From: Parietichytrium sp. I65-24A
Taxonomy: Eukaryota > Sar > Bigyra > Thraustochytrida > Thraustochytriidae
Direction of reading: 5' to 3'
DNA: 64,000 nt
Assembly: GCA_012862575.1 (NCBI GenBank)
Contig: BLSF01000001.1
Span: 1,116,001-1,180,000, forward strand
In this document: positions 1 through 16,015 of the stretch, one piece after another
Position numbering within the stretch: position 1 is the first letter of the stretch
How the letters are laid out: each line of letters starts with the position of its first letter
Program-made: the position numbers and the translations under genes
The notes under the pieces: model-generated
The model's database searches: none
Seen by the model: the letters and a program-made list of their open reading frames with translations, nothing else
Told to the model about the DNA's origin: nothing

Positions 1-2182
1 CGCCTTGTCGCGAGATGTCCCGAGGAAGCTCCTATTTCGATTTTCGAGCGCACGCCGCTACTCGGTACCGACGTACTGACTGCGAATGTGAGAGAGTGAG
101 TAAATCGCCTAGTCCTGCAAGACCTCGCATTGCGTGCCCCAAGCAAGCGACCGCAATCAACTTTCACTACCGTGTCATGAATGAAGGTCAGTCACTAGGC
201 GAGCCGAGATCCCGAGTGCACTTCTCGCTGCTCACTTGCTCACTCGCTCACCGCTGTCAGTTCCACCAATGACTGCGAATGCGGGTTACAGATTCAGGTC
301 GCGAGGAGTCTGGCTTGACCGTGGCCGCTCGACCTGGAAAATATCAGCTCTTGGCGCTTTTGGCACTTGACGAGACGAGAGTTTAAAGCATGCGAAGCAG
401 GAAGGGACTCAGTGTGCACTGCTGACATCTCCAGTGTGCACACAGCAGAGTCCAAGTGACGTGTTGAGGAAGCCCAGCCTTAAATGAACCTGCTTTGTGT
501 CCTGAAACTCGCAGTCGGTAGGTAACTCACAGGCCGCATTACGCTAGCTAGCGAGTCTCGATCGAGTCTCTGCAAGCTTCTCAAAGTTAGATGCTTCGCT
601 TTGCGAACGCATGGGCGACATGAAAGAAAAGCGAATTGTAAGCGACTAAAGTTCTGAGCCTATGAGACGACCTTCCAAAACTGATCCCAGAACTTCCACG
701 TCCGTCAACTTTGCGAGGTGTGTGGTACTCGGCTATGAGATGGCCTGTCTCACAAGACATTGAGCCAAGATCAGGTGGTATGATGGAGTCTGACTCACCG
801 TCAGGACTCATAGTGGAACCTTCTATTAAAAGGTACAAACGGTGACACAAAATTCACGCGAGGTTTGTCCATCATTCGCGGAAATTCGCGGAGACGGTAT
901 GACGATCGTCACTGGTGTGCGTGCCGTGCGTGCCTCGAGTTGTCATCATGCAAGCACCGGTACAGGAAAGATACCCAGAGAAATGGAAGAGGCATGAGAT
1001 AGATATCTATCATCTGGAATTAACAGTTAGTGCTTGTTCATTAAAAGAGCCGAAGCCTTGCGTTGTTTGCTATATTTTCACAGCCAACCAAGAGAAGCTA
1101 GCTAGCTGTGTGAGCTTATTTACAGTACTGACAGTGAGCACCTCACTGATTCACCCTGCCAAGATGTTTGCGATGAGGCCGAAGTCGGACGGGGGTTGCC
1201 GAGGATTCCAAGTCCTGCGTGCTGCGTGCATCGAATTTGGACCTCGCACACCTTCATAAATTTGTGCCCTTGGAGAAGTTCTCACATTTTTGAGGTTAAG
1301 CTCGAGTTGTTGTTTTTCAACCTGAATCAAACGGGACCATCCGAGAAACTTGTTTTCCGCTCGACTCTCAAGAGATGTCCGACTGCGGACTACAAGTGAA
1401 TGGTGGAACTTTGCGATGAAATGAGGTCCGCACTGTCCGCACTCGCAGAAAATCTTGAGCACCTTCTACAATTTGGTCGCGTTCATTCGTGGGGCAGGAG
1501 CCAAGCCGTTCAAAATTCGCGTCGTGTATGTTGACTTTGCGAAACGCGTCCATGGTAATTCTTGTTCTTCTGCCTTTCCAGCAACGGTTCAACAAGCCAA
1601 AGTGCGCCAGCCTTTGCCACTCTTCTTTGTGCCTGTGCGCCTGCCGTTCGGTTAGGTTAGGCTGTATAGCGGAGTAAAAAGGGACATCCCAAGCACTATC
1701 AAGCACTATCTATCGTTTCGCAGTTCCCTAGATCTTCTTCTCACCACTTCTTCCCAAGTCACCGTCACCACGCCCCAAGCTTTTGAGCCTTCACCAACCA
1801 TTGGACCAACAACGTCCCTGGACCTCTTAACGTAGACCTTCGCTCAAGGGCCTCTCGTCTCGTGGAGAACCAAGTGTCAAGCAAGAATTATCGTTTCGGG
1901 TGTCTTCTCGGAAGCAAGTGCTCAGGACGATAAAACGAACAAAGTACAAAATTCAATTGAAATGTCTAGTCCCAGCGCTTACTGCTTCAGGCCGAATGAT
2001 TATGATACATCAAATGGACGCAACTGGCGTGTTTGCGAGTCCCGAAAGCGCGCCTGCATGGGTGCATTTCATGGCGCGAAACAAAAAAAGGCAGATCGAG
2101 CAAGCCTGCGGGCCTGAGAAAAGTGATGTGCTGCACCTCCCTGTCTCGTTCTGCTAATGTGCAAGTTCAGGAAACGAACGTC
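1..2182. other. Intergenic, no gene recognised
   Basis: Short open frames occur on both strands here, but none shows a recognisable domain, biased composition or a conserved-looking motif. I see no tRNA-like or rRNA sequence. The right part is the 3' flank of the ubiquitin-like gene on the minus strand. A gene with very short exons could be missed. Confidence 0.5.
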
Positions 2183-2680
2183 TCAGATCCTCTTATACGG
2201 GTTGCAACACGTGTCGCAAGAGTCGCAGCAGTCGCAGCACGCCTCTTTACAGGTGAAAACAGAGTCTCGCAGGCAGTGACCCAGTGGAGCGAGCGCATAG
2301 TCATAAATACAAATCAGCGGTGGAGCAAGCAAATTTCTCCAAAACCACCCCAAGCAAGAGGCAATCTTCGGTGCAATCAGCCACAGCAACCACAGCCCGA
2401 ACGCGGCTCCAACCGCAATCAGCACTACATCTAACACGCCGAGTCCGCCTCGCATTCTCCTATGCCTCTGCACTTCCGCGCCGTCGCTCACCCCTTGCTC
2501 TCGCAGGCTCAGCCCAGCCTTCAGCGGCCTGCCACACGATGTGTAAAAGCAATCCGCGCCATCGTTCGCCGCCACGTCCAAATCCATCAGCCACTTTGCA
2601 TCTTCGTCCGCGTCAATTTCGTAAGCCGCACATTCAAGGCCCGCGCCGGAAACTATCAGCCGTCTTTTGCCCATTCTCAT
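2183..2680 (-). CDS. Ubiquitin-like domain protein with membrane segments and cysteine-rich tail
   Basis: 165 residues from an ATG (a second Met is at residue 3). Residues 5-79 read as a ubiquitin-like fold: the stretch GRPLKAGLSLREQGV (50-64) parallels the ubiquitin segment around its beta3 strand and following loop, and the domain closes with RMRGG (75-79), as in ubiquitin's LRLRGG. The chain does not end there: a hydrophobic segment follows at once (about 81-103), then a second weaker one (about 114-133), then a tail with eight cysteines between residues 144 and 159. Known membrane ubiquitin-like proteins (TMUB1/2, HERP, prenylated MUBs) do not, to my knowledge, put a di-glycine immediately before the membrane. 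I infer a membrane-anchored ubiquitin-like protein, possibly processed after the di-glycine and possibly S-acylated on the tail. Divergent from the PKA regulatory subunit gene. Confidence 0.7.
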   Translation of the reverse strand: MRMGKRRLIVSGAGLECAAYEIDADEDAKWLMDLDVAANDGADCFYTSCGRPLKAGLSLREQGVSDGAEVQRHRRMRGGLGVLDVVLIAVGAAFGLWLLWLIAPKIASCLGWFWRNLLAPPLICIYDYALAPLGHCLRDSVFTCKEACCDCCDSCDTCCNPYKRI

Positions 2681-3568
2681 CCACTTCTTCCAGTAAAAAA
2701 TATTAAATACAGCCCCTCTTTCTCTAACAAAATAACAAAATCCACGAAACTAGATGATTCTCTCACTTCCCTTCCGTCTCGCTCGCTCGTACACTGCAAC
2801 CCTATTCATGCACAATGCGTACACTTATGCATACGCGTACGCCGCGTACGTCCTCAGAAGTGAGCGATGGTGTTAGAGAGAGAGTGAAGAGAGTGACAAC
2901 GACTTGCAATCTCCTCTATCTATCTACCTCTATCTCTCTATCTCCTCAAAGGAAGGCAGACTTCGCAGAGCAGGAGAACAACGAAGCAGTACTCTTTCGC
3001 TTTGCGAAGCGATTTTTAACGCTCTTTTTGGTTATTTTGGTTGTTTTGTCTCTTTTTCCTTCATCGCATTCGTCACATCCCAATGCATTTTACCTCGTTT
3101 TTGCATTAAAAACAAAAATAAACGTAAATTAAAACAAATAAAGAATTTGATTCACGTTTTAGATTGATTCTTTTTCTTGGTTTCATAACACAGCCATGCG
3201 TTTCATCACGCGAACCCTTCCTCCTCTCAAGTGAAAACAGAGCCAGACTCCACTCACACTCTACGTTGGTCACAGCCACTGTGACATACTTGTAACATAC
3301 TTTTGGCATACTTTTGACATACTCGTGACATACTGTGGGACCGACGCGCACTAACAACACTCTGCTGTTCTTGTGTGGTCGGAAGCTGAAAGTTGCGTGG
3401 CTGCCGCGCAGGTACATACAAAAGGACACGTGCGAAGCTATACAATAAGTTGGGAAGTGAAAGGTTGCGGAGAAGGAGCGTTCAACGCTGCAAAGGGTGG
3501 AGACGATAGTTGTAGTTCAGGCGAATTCGGAGGAGTGAAATGCCAAGGTAGAGAGAAGCTGGGCGAGA
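2681..3568. promoter_or_regulatory. Divergent intergenic region between the ubiquitin-like and PKA-R genes
   Basis: About 0.9 kb that must hold both 5' regions. It contains a CTATCT-rich stretch near 2913-2945 and the 11-bp tandem array at 3281-3335. No gene is seen. Confidence 0.5.
3281..3335. repeat. 11-bp tandem repeat, 5 copies
   Basis: Five successive variants of a GTGACATACTT unit, lying about 235 bp upstream of the PKA regulatory subunit ATG. The core CATACT is kept in every copy. Confidence 0.85.
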
Positions 3569-4954
3569 ATGGGATACGAGAGCGATGAGGACGAGGACTC
3601 GGTGGTGGATGCTGAGGAACAGGAGAGGCTGTTCCGAGTGCAGGAAGATGACTTGCAGCAGTACTTGACGCGGATGAGGCTGGACAAGCTCTTCGAGGAG
3701 CTCGTAGAAGAGCTGATGGTACAGGCGCCGGAGAATCCTGTCAAATTTATGATTGACTACTTGTTCATGCATTTTCCGGATCAAGCCCATCAGAGCTCGT
3801 TTGCAAGGACATTTCCAAATGCAGAGAATGCCGTCGGAGGGGGAATTCCCCTCACCGGGATTGTAGAAGGCGAGGCTCTCGCCCGAGGAGATGATAGCGA
3901 GGCAGACGATGACGAGGAGGAAGAATCGATTGGGATGAAGAGAAGCAGCAGCGGAGATCCGCGAAAAGAGAGCAAAAATGAGCGCGAATCTGCAGAGAAG
4001 AAAACGCTCTCGGGTGCAGATGACGACGATGATCCTGCAGCTGCAAAACTAGAGGAGAAGAGGCGAAAATTCAAAACCAAGATTCAGGAGCGTCGCGGGG
4101 CAGTGTCGATTACTTTTTCCGCGTCAAACTCGGTCGATGAATCTGCAAAGCAGAAACTCTCTGAATCGGAGACCGAAATATTGTTGGGCTTCCTAAAGGA
4201 GAACTTGCTTTTCCAGCAGTATGACGTGCTTACTCAGCGCAGGTTGAGTACTGTCTTCTTTAAAATTGAGCTCAATAGTGGCCAGCTATTATCCAAGCAA
4301 GGCCTTCCCTCAGAGAGATTCTATTTCGTGCAGGACGGAGAATTTGAGCTGCTTGTGGACAACACGAAGGTCTCCTTGCGCACCAGCGGAGAATCTGTTT
4401 GTGAAAGCAGTTTATTAGGCAATGTAAACGCCAGATCCACTGCGCGGTGTACAAGCGAGACCGCTACTGCATTTGCTATTGATAGAGCAGAATTTCAGGC
4501 TTGCGTGCAGCGCGGAGCGGTCGAAGAATTGAAAGTGCGACAGGAAATGCTTCGGAGACTACCTTTCTTTTCGGTTTTGACGGAGGTGGAAATGTCCATA
4601 TTAGCGGAGGACGTCGCGCTGTACGAAGAGCACTCGTCTGGAGAGTTCTTGTTTAAGCAACACTCCCCAGCGAATAAATTATACATTGTTGTTTCTGGGA
4701 CGGCGATATGCCAACAGGTGCTGTCCTCGCACGATGAACCCGAAACAATCACGACCTTTGAGGCTGGAGACTGGTTCGGCGAAGTTGCGCTTGTAACTAA
4801 CAGGCCGCGGGCTGCATCCGTAAAAGTGGACTCGACGTCGTTCGCTTGCTTAACCATAGAGCGTGATCGATTCATCTCAGTCTTTGGAACCCTTGACAAA
4901 CTGCTTCGCAGAGACGTTGCGCTGTACAAAGTATTTATAAGCGACAAGCTTTAA
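3569..4954 (+). CDS. cAMP-dependent protein kinase regulatory subunit (type I-like pseudosubstrate)
   Basis: 461 residues, ATG start. Residues about 29-72 form an RIIa-type dimerisation/docking domain, the part that in this family pairs two subunits and binds A-kinase anchoring proteins. An acidic, Ser-rich linker leads to RRGAVS (175-180), a pseudosubstrate inhibitor of the type I kind (no phosphorylatable Ser/Thr at the P-site). Two cyclic-nucleotide-binding domains follow, about 205-325 and 330-455. The second has an intact phosphate-binding cassette, FGEVALVTNRPRAA (403-416), with the Glu and Arg that contact the nucleotide. In the first the cassette reads GESVCESSLLGNVNARSTA (from 274): the FGE glycine is lost and the PRAA motif is disrupted. 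The family inhibits the PKA catalytic subunit until cAMP binds; here the first site may bind cAMP weakly or bind another ligand. No catalytic subunit is in the window. Confidence 0.93.
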   Translation: MGYESDEDEDSVVDAEEQERLFRVQEDDLQQYLTRMRLDKLFEELVEELMVQAPENPVKFMIDYLFMHFPDQAHQSSFARTFPNAENAVGGGIPLTGIVEGEALARGDDSEADDDEEEESIGMKRSSSGDPRKESKNERESAEKKTLSGADDDDDPAAAKLEEKRRKFKTKIQERRGAVSITFSASNSVDESAKQKLSESETEILLGFLKENLLFQQYDVLTQRRLSTVFFKIELNSGQLLSKQGLPSERFYFVQDGEFELLVDNTKVSLRTSGESVCESSLLGNVNARSTARCTSETATAFAIDRAEFQACVQRGAVEELKVRQEMLRRLPFFSVLTEVEMSILAEDVALYEEHSSGEFLFKQHSPANKLYIVVSGTAICQQVLSSHDEPETITTFEAGDWFGEVALVTNRPRAASVKVDSTSFACLTIERDRFISVFGTLDKLLRRDVALYKVFISDKL

Positions 4955-5825: not shown

Positions 5826-7406
5826 ATGGGTGCTCTTGCGCGGGTGTTGGCCCGCGGAAGACGCTGGGTGATACTTGTTGCGCTTGTGCTGAGGAGCGCG
5901 AGTTTGCAGCGCGTTCAGGGAGAGGAGAGCAAGCTCAGAGTGGCACACGTGTTTTCTGCGTTTTCAGGGACCAGTAGCAGCGAGCAGGTCGAAGCGCATA
6001 TTGTACAGAAGAGCTGGCAGATTGCGGCGGAGAGAGCTGCTGAAATCGGAATAGAGGTGGAGCTGACAAACGTGGCGCTAAGCAAGGACCTCGCATTTGA
6101 CAACCTTGATATATGGCACAAAACTCTAGAGATGGACGACAGCAACTCTGTTCGGAGTGTAAATGGCAAGCTTGTCCCAGCCATTGGAGACATTCTCTCG
6201 CGTGCCAGCTCAAGTAGTCAAGTCGACTGGATCATTTACTCAAATGCCGATATTGGGTTTGCTCCTGACTTTTACGAGAAATTTGCTAAACTTATAGGAG
6301 ATTACAAGCGAGCAAGAGAGGACCCGTCCGCGTTCTTCAAGCTCCTCAAGGCATCATTTGGAATGTTTAGGTACTGCCTCAGAAAGGAAGTCTCCTGTGG
6401 TAATTTTGGTCGCTGTTGGGGCGACGTGCAGGAGTATTTTGAAAACATTGGAGGTAGAGCTAGTAATCACCTCGAAGTCACAATTCTGGCCAAGTATCTC
6501 TGGGGTGAGGCAAACGATGAGTTGTCCCGAACGAAGGCGCGTCGAGAATCCGGCAAGACTCTCTCTTGTTGGAGGGAGCTTGAGACTGTCGACGAGTTCT
6601 TTCAAAAGGAGACCAGTCTGTCTCCAGACGAGTTGCGATTCGACGGCGACATGAACCTTCTGATGAAGTCAAACATAGAAGAGGGATACAAATGGCCGTC
6701 TGGGACAATAACCCGGATGGACATTCCAGAAAGCGAAGAGGCGTATGAGCTTGTCATGGAAGTGGCTGCTAATGACGACATCGCCGCCTTGGTAAACTTT
6801 GCGAGATTCGTAGGCAAGACGCACCCTGGAAATGATGTCTTCTTCTTTCGAAGAAGTGATCTTCCCGAAATGGTCAAGCGCTTCAAGCATCCGATGGGAC
6901 TGCGACCATGGGGTATGTGGCTCCCTTTAGCATTCCAGGAAAAGTTACCCTGGCGGAGAGAAGTTGGCACGCGAAAAAACATTTGGACCTTTCATCTCGG
7001 CGTTTCTGCAAATGTCTGGAAATCGCAACTGAAAAGCGATGGGTCTTTAATCCTCCAGCTCGCTGCGGACTGGTTCATATCAAGTGAGTACAAGTTTGGG
7101 GAGCAATTCAGCGAGGTTGACGAGAAGTGCAATTCAATACAACTTTGGCGTTCAACAAAATTTTGTGCGTCGGAACCTTCATACTGCCAAGGAACGGTGA
7201 GGCTCTCTTGCGTTAGACGCCAAACTCGCCAAACTCGAGACGTACAGTCGTATTTGTCCCTCTGCCGCAAGGAGCGTTTACAATTTCAGGTAGTCTCCCC
7301 TGAAAAGTGCAACTTTTGCAACTTTCTATTCAGTGTTTACCATGCAGAAGAGCTCCTTTCTTGCTCAATCACAGACAATCAAGAGCTTGAAAGGCTGCTG
7401 CTTTGA
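5826..7406 (+). CDS. Secreted/Golgi glycosyltransferase-like protein, family not identified
   Basis: 526 residues, ATG in a good context (AAAAATGGG). The N-terminus is Arg-rich then hydrophobic (about 14-30) and ends in RVQGEESK, which fits a signal peptide or signal anchor. Residues 135-150 read WIIYSNADIGFAPDFY; an NAD-type acidic motif after a hydrophobic beta-strand, followed by an aromatic pair, is typical of nucleotide-sugar-binding GT-A folds. A further acidic, aromatic stretch (DVFFFRRSDLPEMV, about 336-349) and many cysteines in the last 100 residues suit a lumenal enzyme. I infer a GT-A-like enzyme of the secretory pathway; donor, acceptor and CAZy family are unknown. Confidence 0.6.
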   Translation: MGALARVLARGRRWVILVALVLRSASLQRVQGEESKLRVAHVFSAFSGTSSSEQVEAHIVQKSWQIAAERAAEIGIEVELTNVALSKDLAFDNLDIWHKTLEMDDSNSVRSVNGKLVPAIGDILSRASSSSQVDWIIYSNADIGFAPDFYEKFAKLIGDYKRAREDPSAFFKLLKASFGMFRYCLRKEVSCGNFGRCWGDVQEYFENIGGRASNHLEVTILAKYLWGEANDELSRTKARRESGKTLSCWRELETVDEFFQKETSLSPDELRFDGDMNLLMKSNIEEGYKWPSGTITRMDIPESEEAYELVMEVAANDDIAALVNFARFVGKTHPGNDVFFFRRSDLPEMVKRFKHPMGLRPWGMWLPLAFQEKLPWRREVGTRKNIWTFHLGVSANVWKSQLKSDGSLILQLAADWFISSEYKFGEQFSEVDEKCNSIQLWRSTKFCASEPSYCQGTVRLSCVRRQTRQTRDVQSYLSLCRKERLQFQVVSPEKCNFCNFLFSVYHAEELLSCSITDNQELERLLL

Positions 7407-7772: not shown

Positions 7773-9764
7773 ATGCAGTCGCAAAGTTGCGCAAATGACC
7801 TCTTCTCGCCATGGGAAGAAGACTTGGCGGTGATTCCCAAGCGAATTGTGCTTCGAGAGGAGCCCGAGCACGACTTGGAGCAGGCGAAGGGGCTGAGCAA
7901 AGCGCGATTACAGGGAGATTCGCGGAGCACATGGTCGAGCAGCGTGGCTTCGAGGACAGTGGATCAAATTGTGCAACGCAGGCTTTCGAAAGGCTCGGAG
8001 CGAACGCCAAAAGGTGGGCTGCTCCCGTCAGTGTCTACGAATCAAGATGTTGAAGATCCTTCTGTGATGAGTTCAACAGACCTTGGCTCTGAGAACGAGA
8101 TCCTGAAGACGGAAGTACTGTCCTTGAAGAAAGCATTGGTAGCTGGTATGCGCGGCGATGGCAAGTTCATGTCCAATGGGCAATTAAAAGGGACAAGCAA
8201 AGCAAATACAACAGACATTAAACCGGTCCAGAGCGGAATGAAGCGGTCAACGTCACTGACGGGGAGCAGCATGATATCATCGAGCTCTGCCAAAAGAAGC
8301 TCAGAGAAGGTGTCTATGCACATCTTGAGAGCGCAGCGACTGGAGCAAGATCTTTCGTTCCGCTCACGAGAACTATACGCTGCTCGCGAGGAGCTCAAGA
8401 AGGCTCAAATGGAAATTGGAAACACGAATCAGCTCAAGAAACAAATCGAAAAGCTGGAGGCTCAGGTCAAAGCCCTCAAATTTGTCCGTGAGCGAGCCAA
8501 CATGCTCAAGGATGGGCCATCAGAGAATCCCGAGGTGTTAGCCTTAAGAAAGGCAATTGCGGACAAGGACAAGACGCTCTCATTTCTTATTAGTCAGGTT
8601 ACTCAAGTTCGGGAGGAGAAGGCCTTGGCCCAAGAAGAGCTCACTAGTTTGCAAGAAACCACCAACAGAGAAAAAGAAGGGCTAACTCGAGAAGTCTTGG
8701 CGCTAAGGGAAGAGTCGAGAACTTTGCGAAAGCAGATGCAGGTCATATTTGCTGAGAAGCAAAATCTTCAAGAGAAAATCAGCGCCATGCAAGCAACTAT
8801 CGTCGATCACATTGAAACACAGGAAACGCTTCAAGCCACACCTCCTGCTTCAGAGCTCCAGTCGTCCATGCAGCAGGCAGAGGTCAACGAATTGGTCAAC
8901 AAGGTTCTTGAGTCCGAGAAGCGAGCAAAGCGAGCCGAAGACAAAGCAAGAGACGATGCTTTTGAGAGTAAAAAGCTTTCTCAAGAGAAACAAGACCTGA
9001 AGGACCAGCTGGAGGAGATTAAAAATCGTGAGAAGTATTTAATGCTGATCGTGGAAAGCAAAGACGCAGAAATCGCCAACGAGAAGCAAGCCGTTCAGAA
9101 GCTAGAAGTCCTTACTGGTAATCTTCGAAAGGAGCTCTCAGAGGTACGGACCAAGCTTGGGGAGAGGGCGGCTCGAATTCAAGACCTGGAGACGCAAAGA
9201 GCAGCAGAACTTAAAGCACAGCTGCACAGCGACACGCTCATTCGGCAACTAGAGACGGCTTGCCAACGTCTTCGAGGAAGGCCCGCGAACATGGACGTCC
9301 GCTCGCCCTTGTTCGCCAATTGGGTCTCGAACGAGTACCAGGCTGGCATTGACAAGACCGAAGCTGCACTGACGGAGCTTAAAGCCAGCAATTTGTCGCT
9401 TCTTGCTGCGATCGAAAGCTTGAAAAAGGAGCTCGACAAAGAGAAGGAGCGTTCGGAGGATGGACGCAAAACCTTTTTGAGAGAGGTCGTGCGAGCATCT
9501 GTCCGTCTGTGCATCGTGACGCCGACTGTGAATTTGAATATTAGTAATGGGGGAAACCTTCGCGTACAGCAGGCCCCGTCCCAAGAGGACGTCGCAAAGA
9601 TGGTTGCCCTTGAGGTTCTCCCCAAATTCTCCAATGTATTTGTTCAAAGTGAAAAGGGACTTGGCCCTGATGGTGAGACTCCAATCGAACGATGGGTGTC
9701 TGGGTACACCACCAATTTGCAAAGCGCATTAAGCAAGGAGATCCACCAAGCGCTCTCGCGATGA
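7773..9764 (+). CDS. Long coiled-coil protein, function unknown
   Basis: 663 residues, ATG start. Residues 1-170 are low in order and Ser/Lys-rich. Heptad-like helices rich in Glu, Lys, Gln and Leu run from about 175 to 500 and again from about 520 to 570 with few breaks. The last 100 residues (from about 565) are not coiled coil and look like a small folded domain ending in a helix. Coiled-coil proteins of this type often build centrosomal, basal-body or Golgi structures, but nothing here identifies the family. Its end lies 219 bp from the convergent L7/L12 gene. Confidence 0.75.
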   Translation: MQSQSCANDLFSPWEEDLAVIPKRIVLREEPEHDLEQAKGLSKARLQGDSRSTWSSSVASRTVDQIVQRRLSKGSERTPKGGLLPSVSTNQDVEDPSVMSSTDLGSENEILKTEVLSLKKALVAGMRGDGKFMSNGQLKGTSKANTTDIKPVQSGMKRSTSLTGSSMISSSSAKRSSEKVSMHILRAQRLEQDLSFRSRELYAAREELKKAQMEIGNTNQLKKQIEKLEAQVKALKFVRERANMLKDGPSENPEVLALRKAIADKDKTLSFLISQVTQVREEKALAQEELTSLQETTNREKEGLTREVLALREESRTLRKQMQVIFAEKQNLQEKISAMQATIVDHIETQETLQATPPASELQSSMQQAEVNELVNKVLESEKRAKRAEDKARDDAFESKKLSQEKQDLKDQLEEIKNREKYLMLIVESKDAEIANEKQAVQKLEVLTGNLRKELSEVRTKLGERAARIQDLETQRAAELKAQLHSDTLIRQLETACQRLRGRPANMDVRSPLFANWVSNEYQAGIDKTEAALTELKASNLSLLAAIESLKKELDKEKERSEDGRKTFLREVVRASVRLCIVTPTVNLNISNGGNLRVQQAPSQEDVAKMVALEVLPKFSNVFVQSEKGLGPDGETPIERWVSGYTTNLQSALSKEIHQALSR

Positions 9765-13834: not shown

Positions 13835-16015
13835 TCAGTCAAATAAAAATTTTTGTTCTTCCTCCTCAGCTTCTGTAGATTGCGAACCATTGTAGCGAGT
13901 AGCATTTCCTTGGCCGTACAGCTTTTCTCGCCCTGTACCCTTCTGTCGAATCGGAGACGTTTGTTGCGGCCTCGTCAGCCCTGGCGGCTCATCCAAGTCA
14001 ACTTGAGGCGCAGTTCGAGAAGTCGGGCCCGATTGCCCGTTCAGAGCAGGCGGGGCCGGATAACCGAGTGCGCTAGCAGTAATGCCAGCCATCCGAAGTT
14101 GGTTGAGAAGAAAAGCCTCCTTATGGCGGAGCTCTTGAACAGTTCCATGAAGTCTGTGATTCTCTTCTTCGATGGCTTGAATTCCCTGATCCTCCGCATC
14201 TTGCGCAGAACGCCTCTGGAAATCCCAGCGCTCTTTCATGCGATCGAGTTGCTGGCGCAGGTGCTCATTTTCGCCCCGCAGCTTATCGACTGCGACTGCG
14301 TCCTTCTGACCATTGTCGGTGTGCACAAACACTTCCTCCAAATTTTCTAGCTTTCGCTGGAGCGCTTCGTTCTCCATCATGGCCGTGCGAAAGTTCCGCT
14401 CTGCGCTGACTTCTCGATACCTCATCGCGCCGTTCTCTGCTCGCAAAACCTCAATTTCCTTCGCATATCCAGCCAGCACGACTTCAATGCTTGGTCCGGC
14501 GCGATTTGTTGGCGAAGCAACCGAGGGAATACGTTGAGCAACGCCTGCTTTTGGGGAAGTGGGACCAGTCCTTTGTCCCATCGGGGCGTTGGGGGAAAAT
14601 GTGTTGATACCCGGAGGGAATAAGTTCCCTGTTTTGCCCCCGATGCCATCTACAATTGGTGGTAGCATGAGGCCCTCAGAGTCCTCATCATCCCTCCTGC
14701 CGCCTTGGGTTCCTCCATTCTGTCGTAAATACTCGTTTTCGGCTTTTAAAAGACGTATTTCCTCTTTCAAACGGGCGATGAGCTTTTCTTTTGGGTCCAT
14801 GTTGAGCGTGGGCGTGTTCTTGATCCTGCTAGCTCGTGACCCGTACTTGAGTGTGTTCAATGTTTCTTCTAGATAAGAAGCCGCGGGGCTGATACAGCAG
14901 GTCATTAACGCCAGTGAGTTGCCACCCAGACAATCGTTTAGTAGCTTTGTCAGCTTTGAATCGCGGATTGGTATGTGCGCAGAGGCGCTTAACTGGCTCT
15001 GGGTACCCGAGAGAGCACTAATACACTTTGAAAGGACGAATAGAGACTTGTTGATGGAAGTGGTTTCAGTCAGAGTAACACCTTCTGAATTGGTTTGTTT
15101 GAGTCTCTCGCTCCCTGCAAGATCGACAAACCTTGTAATTCCCTCTCGTTTCACTTGGTGGCCGTCCTCATCGATAGTGGTGGCCTCAAGGTGCAGAGTG
15201 AGGATGCTGTGTGAACGGGACGAGTCCTTGTTCAATGAGTGCGAGCCCACGCGCCTGTTACGATGGCCTTCACTCACCACCTCGAATACCTCGTCGACGC
15301 TGTTGCACAACACCACGCAAAGATCCTCCACAAAGAAACCCATCCTGGACGACCATCGAACGGGCAACGAGTTATTGCTCATGTTGAGAAGATCGAAGAC
15401 CTGTTCGTTGTAGATCTCGCAATAGCTCGCTTTGATAGAATACTCTGTGTTGGTTCTCTGCTGCGCCTCGTCAAAGATGTAGTTGACGCTCCGAATAATC
15501 AGCCCGTCAGCATCTGAACCCCCGCGATAGCTTTCGGCGGCAATTTGCTCCTCGTAGCCGCTCATCGTGAATGTTTTACCGGAACCTGTTTGTCCGTAGG
15601 CAAAAACGCACGATTTGTATCCATTCAAAGAGGAGTCCAACAATTTTCGGATACCGCATTCCTCAAAAAACTGCGCTTGAGTCGTACTTTCGTCAAAACA
15701 TCGGTTGAAATTGAACGACTTTTCAGTCTTCCCCGCGCCTGGCACTCTTTGCGCCAGTCGTATAGTTTGACCGTTCTCGGTCTCAACAATATTTGGGTCA
15801 TTGCGCTGCAGCTCTGACGACGAAAGCGGTCTTACACGAACGACCACTTTGATGTTGGTGTCTCCGCTCGTCGAAGGCGTACTGTCCACCGTCCCCTTGC
15901 TCGAAACACTGCTCCGAGTGTTCGGCCGGGAACTCTGATTCGGTGTGCTCCCACCGCTGGGGCCCGAGCTCGGCGTCGTTGTCGTTCGCACCGGGCTGCG
16001 CATTCTACGGTCCAT
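13835..16015 (-). CDS. Kinesin with N-terminal motor, KIF12/kinesin-16-like
   Basis: 726 residues, ATG start. A Ser/Thr/Pro-rich head (1-50) leads to a complete motor domain (about 53-405): P-loop GQTGSGKT (141-148), switch I SSRSH (265-269), switch II DLAGSE (298-303). The stretch GFFVEDLCVVLCNSVDEV and the following GHRNRRVGSHSLN resemble KIF12 (kinesin-16) more than conventional kinesins; I rate the subfamily as probable only. A coiled-coil neck follows (about 405-440), then a Pro/Gly-rich hinge and a second coiled coil (about 510-660). It should be a plus-end microtubule motor. Its cargo is unknown; the nearby axonemal genes make a ciliary role possible but do not prove it. Confidence 0.93.
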   Translation of the reverse strand: MDRRMRSPVRTTTTPSSGPSGGSTPNQSSRPNTRSSVSSKGTVDSTPSTSGDTNIKVVVRVRPLSSSELQRNDPNIVETENGQTIRLAQRVPGAGKTEKSFNFNRCFDESTTQAQFFEECGIRKLLDSSLNGYKSCVFAYGQTGSGKTFTMSGYEEQIAAESYRGGSDADGLIIRSVNYIFDEAQQRTNTEYSIKASYCEIYNEQVFDLLNMSNNSLPVRWSSRMGFFVEDLCVVLCNSVDEVFEVVSEGHRNRRVGSHSLNKDSSRSHSILTLHLEATTIDEDGHQVKREGITRFVDLAGSERLKQTNSEGVTLTETTSINKSLFVLSKCISALSGTQSQLSASAHIPIRDSKLTKLLNDCLGGNSLALMTCCISPAASYLEETLNTLKYGSRASRIKNTPTLNMDPKEKLIARLKEEIRLLKAENEYLRQNGGTQGGRRDDEDSEGLMLPPIVDGIGGKTGNLFPPGINTFSPNAPMGQRTGPTSPKAGVAQRIPSVASPTNRAGPSIEVVLAGYAKEIEVLRAENGAMRYREVSAERNFRTAMMENEALQRKLENLEEVFVHTDNGQKDAVAVDKLRGENEHLRQQLDRMKERWDFQRRSAQDAEDQGIQAIEEENHRLHGTVQELRHKEAFLLNQLRMAGITASALGYPAPPALNGQSGPTSRTAPQVDLDEPPGLTRPQQTSPIRQKGTGREKLYGQGNATRYNGSQSTEAEEEEQKFLFD

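Follow-up and report, generated by a model that had tools for sequence, protein, structure and literature searches.

A possible membrane-tethered ubiquitin-like domain with a cysteine-rich tail in a thraustochytrid-like genome

Proteins that hold a ubiquitin-like domain at a membrane are well known, among them TMUB1, Dsc3, MUB/UBL3 and EccD, in the last of which the ubiquitin-like domain precedes the membrane helices. Ubiquitin fusions are cut after their di-glycine. TMUB1 combines a ubiquitin-like domain with membrane segments and is counted among the ubiquitin-like-domain proteins that are not conjugated (PMC2474703). MUB and UBL3 are described as anchored through a prenylated CAAX box and devoid of terminal glycines, with a C-terminal cysteine of UBL3 used for redox-sensitive links (PMC10511055), and EccD, of mycobacterial type VII secretion, is reported to have a cytoplasmic domain of ubiquitin-like fold (PMC4769845). 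Here we analyse an open reading frame (ORF) in a stretch of 64,000 nucleotides of contig BLSF01000001.1 (positions 1,116,001 to 1,180,000; “the window”), in which a ubiquitin-like part, an RGG end, a membrane segment and a cysteine tail follow each other in this order. We tentatively favour, with a probability approaching an even chance, a lineage-restricted, uncut, membrane-tethered ubiquitin-like domain that faces the cytosol of a thraustochytrid-like eukaryote.

Reading frame, domain and membrane segment

The frame lies on the minus strand, running from 2680 to 2183 with 165 codons and a single stop, located at its end; a sequence-only reading of the window had placed it at 2183–2680 without giving a strand. 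By eye, the better start context, with A at −3 and G at +4, belongs to the ATG at residue 3 (base 2674), the second of the frame; this makes 2674 the probable start, and the protein may then comprise 163 residues. N-myristoylation at the MG start was considered and dismissed, since the consensus for this modification is not matched by MGKRRL. RMRGG occupies residues 75–79 (2444–2458, minus), and eight cysteines stand at residues 144, 148, 149, 151, 152, 155, 158 and 159 (cluster 144–159; 2204–2251, minus), both in agreement with the sequence-only reading. The protein ends in PYKRI.

A ubiquitin-like fold for residues 3–79 (2444–2674, minus), which the same reading had assumed, is plausible though not proven, given signals that are individually weak, fairly consistent with each other and unconfirmed by any profile. 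Gly50–Gly79 aligns ungapped with ubiquitin Gly47–Gly76, with eight of the 30 residues identical as counted by eye, and nine of 74 residues are shared with near-standard ubiquitin. On an alignment placed by hand, hydrophobic residues occupy 12 of the 14 ubiquitin core positions and 20 of the 60 others (Fisher p 0.0005). Among 2,000 shuffles that kept RMRGG and were allowed one free indel, the score was reached 16 times, the core pattern 55 times and both together never; the scoring is approximate, since a residue next to the indel may be counted double, in the target as in the shuffles. A structure model of the domain has strands at residues 5–10 and 18–23 and a helix at 28–31 (whole-protein numbering). 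Its weak Foldseek matches (E ≤ 10) are ubiquitin-like folds in 16 of 18 rows, as are all 17 VIA-align rows, which re-examine Foldseek's own list and hence are not independent; nine rows of each list were assigned by title, and we took chains of the ESX-5 complex to be EccD and talin heads to be FERM ubiquitin-like subdomains. The full-length model gave no such matches. The Leu8-Ile44-Val70 patch of ubiquitin corresponds to Ala-Thr-His in the alignment, and where the last strand of ubiquitin alternates in hydrophobicity, the protein has arginine and histidine instead.

Directly behind this domain lies a single strong hydrophobic span of about residues 82–104 (2369–2437, minus). The Kyte–Doolittle (KD) mean over 19 residues, calculated as simple sums without positional weighting, peaks at 2.53 at residues 85–103, and the model of the full-length protein shows a helix at 82–133 with mean predicted local distance difference test values of 84–96 for the three blocks of residues 81–110. 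The membrane segments proposed before thus reduce to one clear span and a semi-hydrophobic stretch at residues 106–136 (2273–2365, minus), with KD means of at most 1.13 (one window in three among those starting from residue 103 onwards) and with Arg115, prolines and Asp127 inside it. Residues 65–79 hold four basic and two acidic residues and residues 104–120 two basic and none acidic. Under the positive-inside rule, the four arginines just before the membrane helix favour an N-in topology and hence a cytosolic domain; with a single span the cysteine tail would then lie outside the cytosol, which disfavours its palmitoylation and favours disulfides or metal binding. The tail cysteines are set among aspartate and glutamate, which would rather suggest a cluster that binds metal or forms disulfides. 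Palmitoylation, which the sequence-only reading had suggested, is doubtful.

Put together, the protein would consist of a cytosolic ubiquitin-like domain fixed to the membrane through a single signal-anchor helix starting right after the di-glycine, with a cysteine tail on the far side that could form disulfides or bind metal. The domain would stay uncut and might serve as a docking surface at the membrane for partners such as E2, E3 or proteasome-type proteins, a role that would parallel those of TMUB1, Dsc3 and MUB, which use other anchors. We prefer an uncut tether to a released modifier because of the adjacent helix and the missing Ile44-type patch: RMRGG is internal and the membrane helix sets in at most three residues after the di-glycine, a distance that would leave little room for a protease, so that the geometry of the sequence speaks rather against cleavage at this site. 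Of this picture, the frame, the succession of parts and the one strong hydrophobic span are seen directly, and the fold, the topology, the lack of cleavage, the docking role and what becomes of the cysteines are inferred.

Alternative readings

The open frame is probably a gene, and it is rather unlikely that it is none or represents an exon of another gene. Several results nevertheless weigh against the favoured reading as a whole. In 1,000 first-order Markov simulations of window positions 1–3568, an ATG-initiated ORF of at least 163 residues occurred 73 times, so that length by itself is weak evidence for a gene; the whole-codon score of −0.010 per codon is lower than that of each of the 16 large ORFs on which the scoring was itself trained (+0.019 to +0.134); and no homologue was found in the searches described below. 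By blocks of 33 codons, the first two (residues 1–66) score +0.09 and +0.10 and the last two −0.07 and −0.18: residues 1–66 resemble the neighbouring large ORFs in codons, and the remainder, rich in cysteine and tryptophan, does not. Synonymous codon use (+4.2 over 165 codons; −7.8 to +22.7 for the 16 large ORFs and −3.3 to +8.8 for 13 other ORFs) is near neutral in this genome and has no power to judge the ORF. What speaks for a gene is that none of the 1,000 simulations gave an ORF of at least 163 residues in which a membrane segment reached KD ≥ 2.5, or one with eight cysteines in 16 residues, and that such a cluster was absent from any ATG-initiated ORF of at least 60 residues in 300 simulations, zeros that overstate the case as both features were picked after the ORF had been seen. 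The real window contains three further six-frame stretches with eight cysteines in 16 residues, of which one contains a stop. The good start context also favours a gene, as does the divergent upstream neighbour at 3569–4954, which encodes a protein with two cyclic-nucleotide-binding stretches. A somewhat weightier alternative, still unlikely, accepts a lineage-specific membrane protein and takes the resemblance of its N-terminal part to ubiquitin for chance. It draws on the profile searches, in which no Pfam family was found at E ≤ 10 and the protein was not one of the 33 listed matches to PF00240 in this genome, on shuffle tests that are borderline overall (p about 0.008–0.04), on the low confidence of both the domain and the full-length model, and on the sole PDB sequence match, a malate dehydrogenase chain (E 0.045, residues 12–59). 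We rejected that match as chance because 77 residues leave no room for the malate dehydrogenase fold. The RMRGG pentapeptide by itself is unremarkable, as R[LMIV]RGG occurs twice in the six frames of the window. Against chance resemblance stands the agreement of several weak signals, namely the register to the di-glycine, the core pattern, the order of secondary structure and structural matches that, for a model of low confidence, are nearly all ubiquitin-like.

If the domain is ubiquitin-like, it might also be a precursor from which a deubiquitinase cuts after Gly79, perhaps co-translationally before membrane insertion, freeing a conjugatable protein with RMRGG at its end and leaving a short membrane peptide that carries the cysteine tail. 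The ubiquitin-type R-x-R-G-G tail at the right distance would suit such a modifier, and the genome presumably cuts after GG in other proteins, by analogy to known fusions: it encodes a ubiquitin–S30 fusion (PF00240 and PF04758) and, by eye, also ubiquitin–L40, a ubiquitin–S27a-like fusion and ubiquitin joined to a second ubiquitin/NEDD8-like unit, together with ThiF/E1-type proteins (20 rows, including fragments of the same protein). We nonetheless consider the precursor improbable, since a membrane helix would follow the cut by at most three residues, where the fusions seen in this genome have soluble partners, since there is no Ile44-type patch and the last strand has arginine and histidine in place of its hydrophobic alternation, and since no paralogue that could act as a separate modifier was found in the genome. 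Very unlikely in our view is a related proposal, in which protease release at the membrane or before insertion would act as a switch supplying the free modifier and the cysteine tail, across the membrane, would sense redox state or metal. A last alternative lies partly inside the favoured reading and concerns the tail: with two membrane passes or a hairpin, the tail would be cytosolic and could be acylated by DHHC enzymes, steering the protein to a membrane domain. The tail would be open to S-acylation only if residues 106–136 dip back as a hairpin, for which their semi-hydrophobic character and the long predicted helix at 82–133 could be cited, as could the DHHC proteins encoded in the genome (17 rows, of which 16 exceed the cut-off by themselves and one does so together with its neighbour). 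The low KD means and the Arg115, prolines and Asp127 of this stretch argue otherwise, as does the acidic setting of the cysteines, and we rate this topology as improbable, too.

Relatives and genomic setting

Within its own genome, a 42.5-Mb assembly of 172 contigs, the full-length protein, residues 1–80 and residues 80–165 each matched only themselves. A search of 5.8 billion proteins (including the eukaryotic sets eukprot, mmetsp and nr) with the full length and residues 38–80 returned 87 candidates, none of which reached E ≤ 0.01, and, in a separate run, no candidate with three shared words; this search requires exact five-residue words and similar length, so that distant relatives may be missed. 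Scans of viral contigs (nine pattern matches) and prokaryotic genome contigs (125 pattern matches), which reach close relatives only, gave no relatives. For now, the protein is an orphan of one genome and a candidate rather than a discovery. That no named family has this order of parts, as the sequence-only reading had supposed, fits the Pfam and protein searches. In the paper library searched, no text combined “thraustochytrid” and “ubiquitin-like”, and among papers on membrane-bound di-glycine or protist ubiquitin-like proteins nothing alike was seen by titles and abstract openings.

Other ubiquitin genes of the genome vary in arrangement. One (L002; G000:C82:133420-133635, minus, and downstream) fuses S30 to near-standard ubiquitin, with PF00240 and PF04758 in one frame, unlike animal S30, which is fused to a diverged FUBI-type domain. 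Another (L009/L011; G000:C16:76150-76572, minus) carries ubiquitin and then, in frame, a diverged ubiquitin/NEDD8-like unit ending in RGGGSV, whose best single-domain PDB matches to RUB1/NEDD8 (65.9 bits) and ubiquitin (63.8 bits) are alike. Two ubiquitin copies (L007 and L008; G000:C149 and C146) stop directly after RLR without GG, perhaps owing to an intron or because they are pseudogenes. A Sde2 profile had one match in the genome, under its cut-off (E 0.377).

Elsewhere in the window, a KIF12-like kinesin (13835–16015, minus) has its best named match, the fourth of the 120 matches listed, in Hondaea fermentalgiana, with 55% identity across 56% of the query; oomycetes, ciliates and green algae appear lower in the list. 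Judging by this one protein, the genome probably belongs near the thraustochytrids and, at 55% identity, probably not to Hondaea itself. Two long ORFs at 5826–7406 and 7773–9764 (both plus; 526 and 663 residues) match no Pfam family at E ≤ 0.001.

Comparison with known systems

If the fold holds, a ubiquitin-like domain would be tied without a linker to the membrane at its own conjugation end and would be followed by a cysteine-rich tail, and no family with this arrangement came up in the searches made; if the protein were cut after the di-glycine, a ubiquitin-like modifier would be released from a membrane. TMUB1, by its description, shares the combination of a ubiquitin-like domain and a membrane part, and is not known to have an RGG end abutting the helix or a cysteine tail; the general ubiquitin profile PF00240 has no match in our protein. 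Dsc3 (subunit 3 of the DSC E3 complex) resembles the protein in having the ubiquitin-like domain first and the membrane part after it, and the Pfam profiles Dsc3_N and Dsc3_C did not match our protein. The genome's own Dsc3 candidate (L025; sub-threshold matches to PF00240 with 22.6 bits, cut-off 25.4, and to PF13373 Dsc3_C with 20.1 bits, cut-off 25) differs by eye in possessing a linker and lacking GG; it and L013 each have a ubiquitin-like domain, followed later in the sequence by a stretch that by eye is hydrophobic, and no GG.

MUB and UBL3 likewise have a ubiquitin fold held to the membrane at its C-terminal side, from which our protein differs by its RGG and membrane helix and, in view of its PYKRI end, by the absence of a CAAX box. 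Chains of EccD or the ESX-5 complex rank first to sixth in the Foldseek list for the domain model (E 0.79–4.3); EccD, a bacterial multi-span protein, is not known to have RGG or a cysteine tail. Finally, the ubiquitin fusion precursors (ubiquitin–S30, –L40, –S27a and –NEDD8) share the R-x-R-G-G that leads directly into another protein, whereas their partners are soluble and their first ubiquitin is near-standard, the very sequence with which our candidate has so few residues in common.
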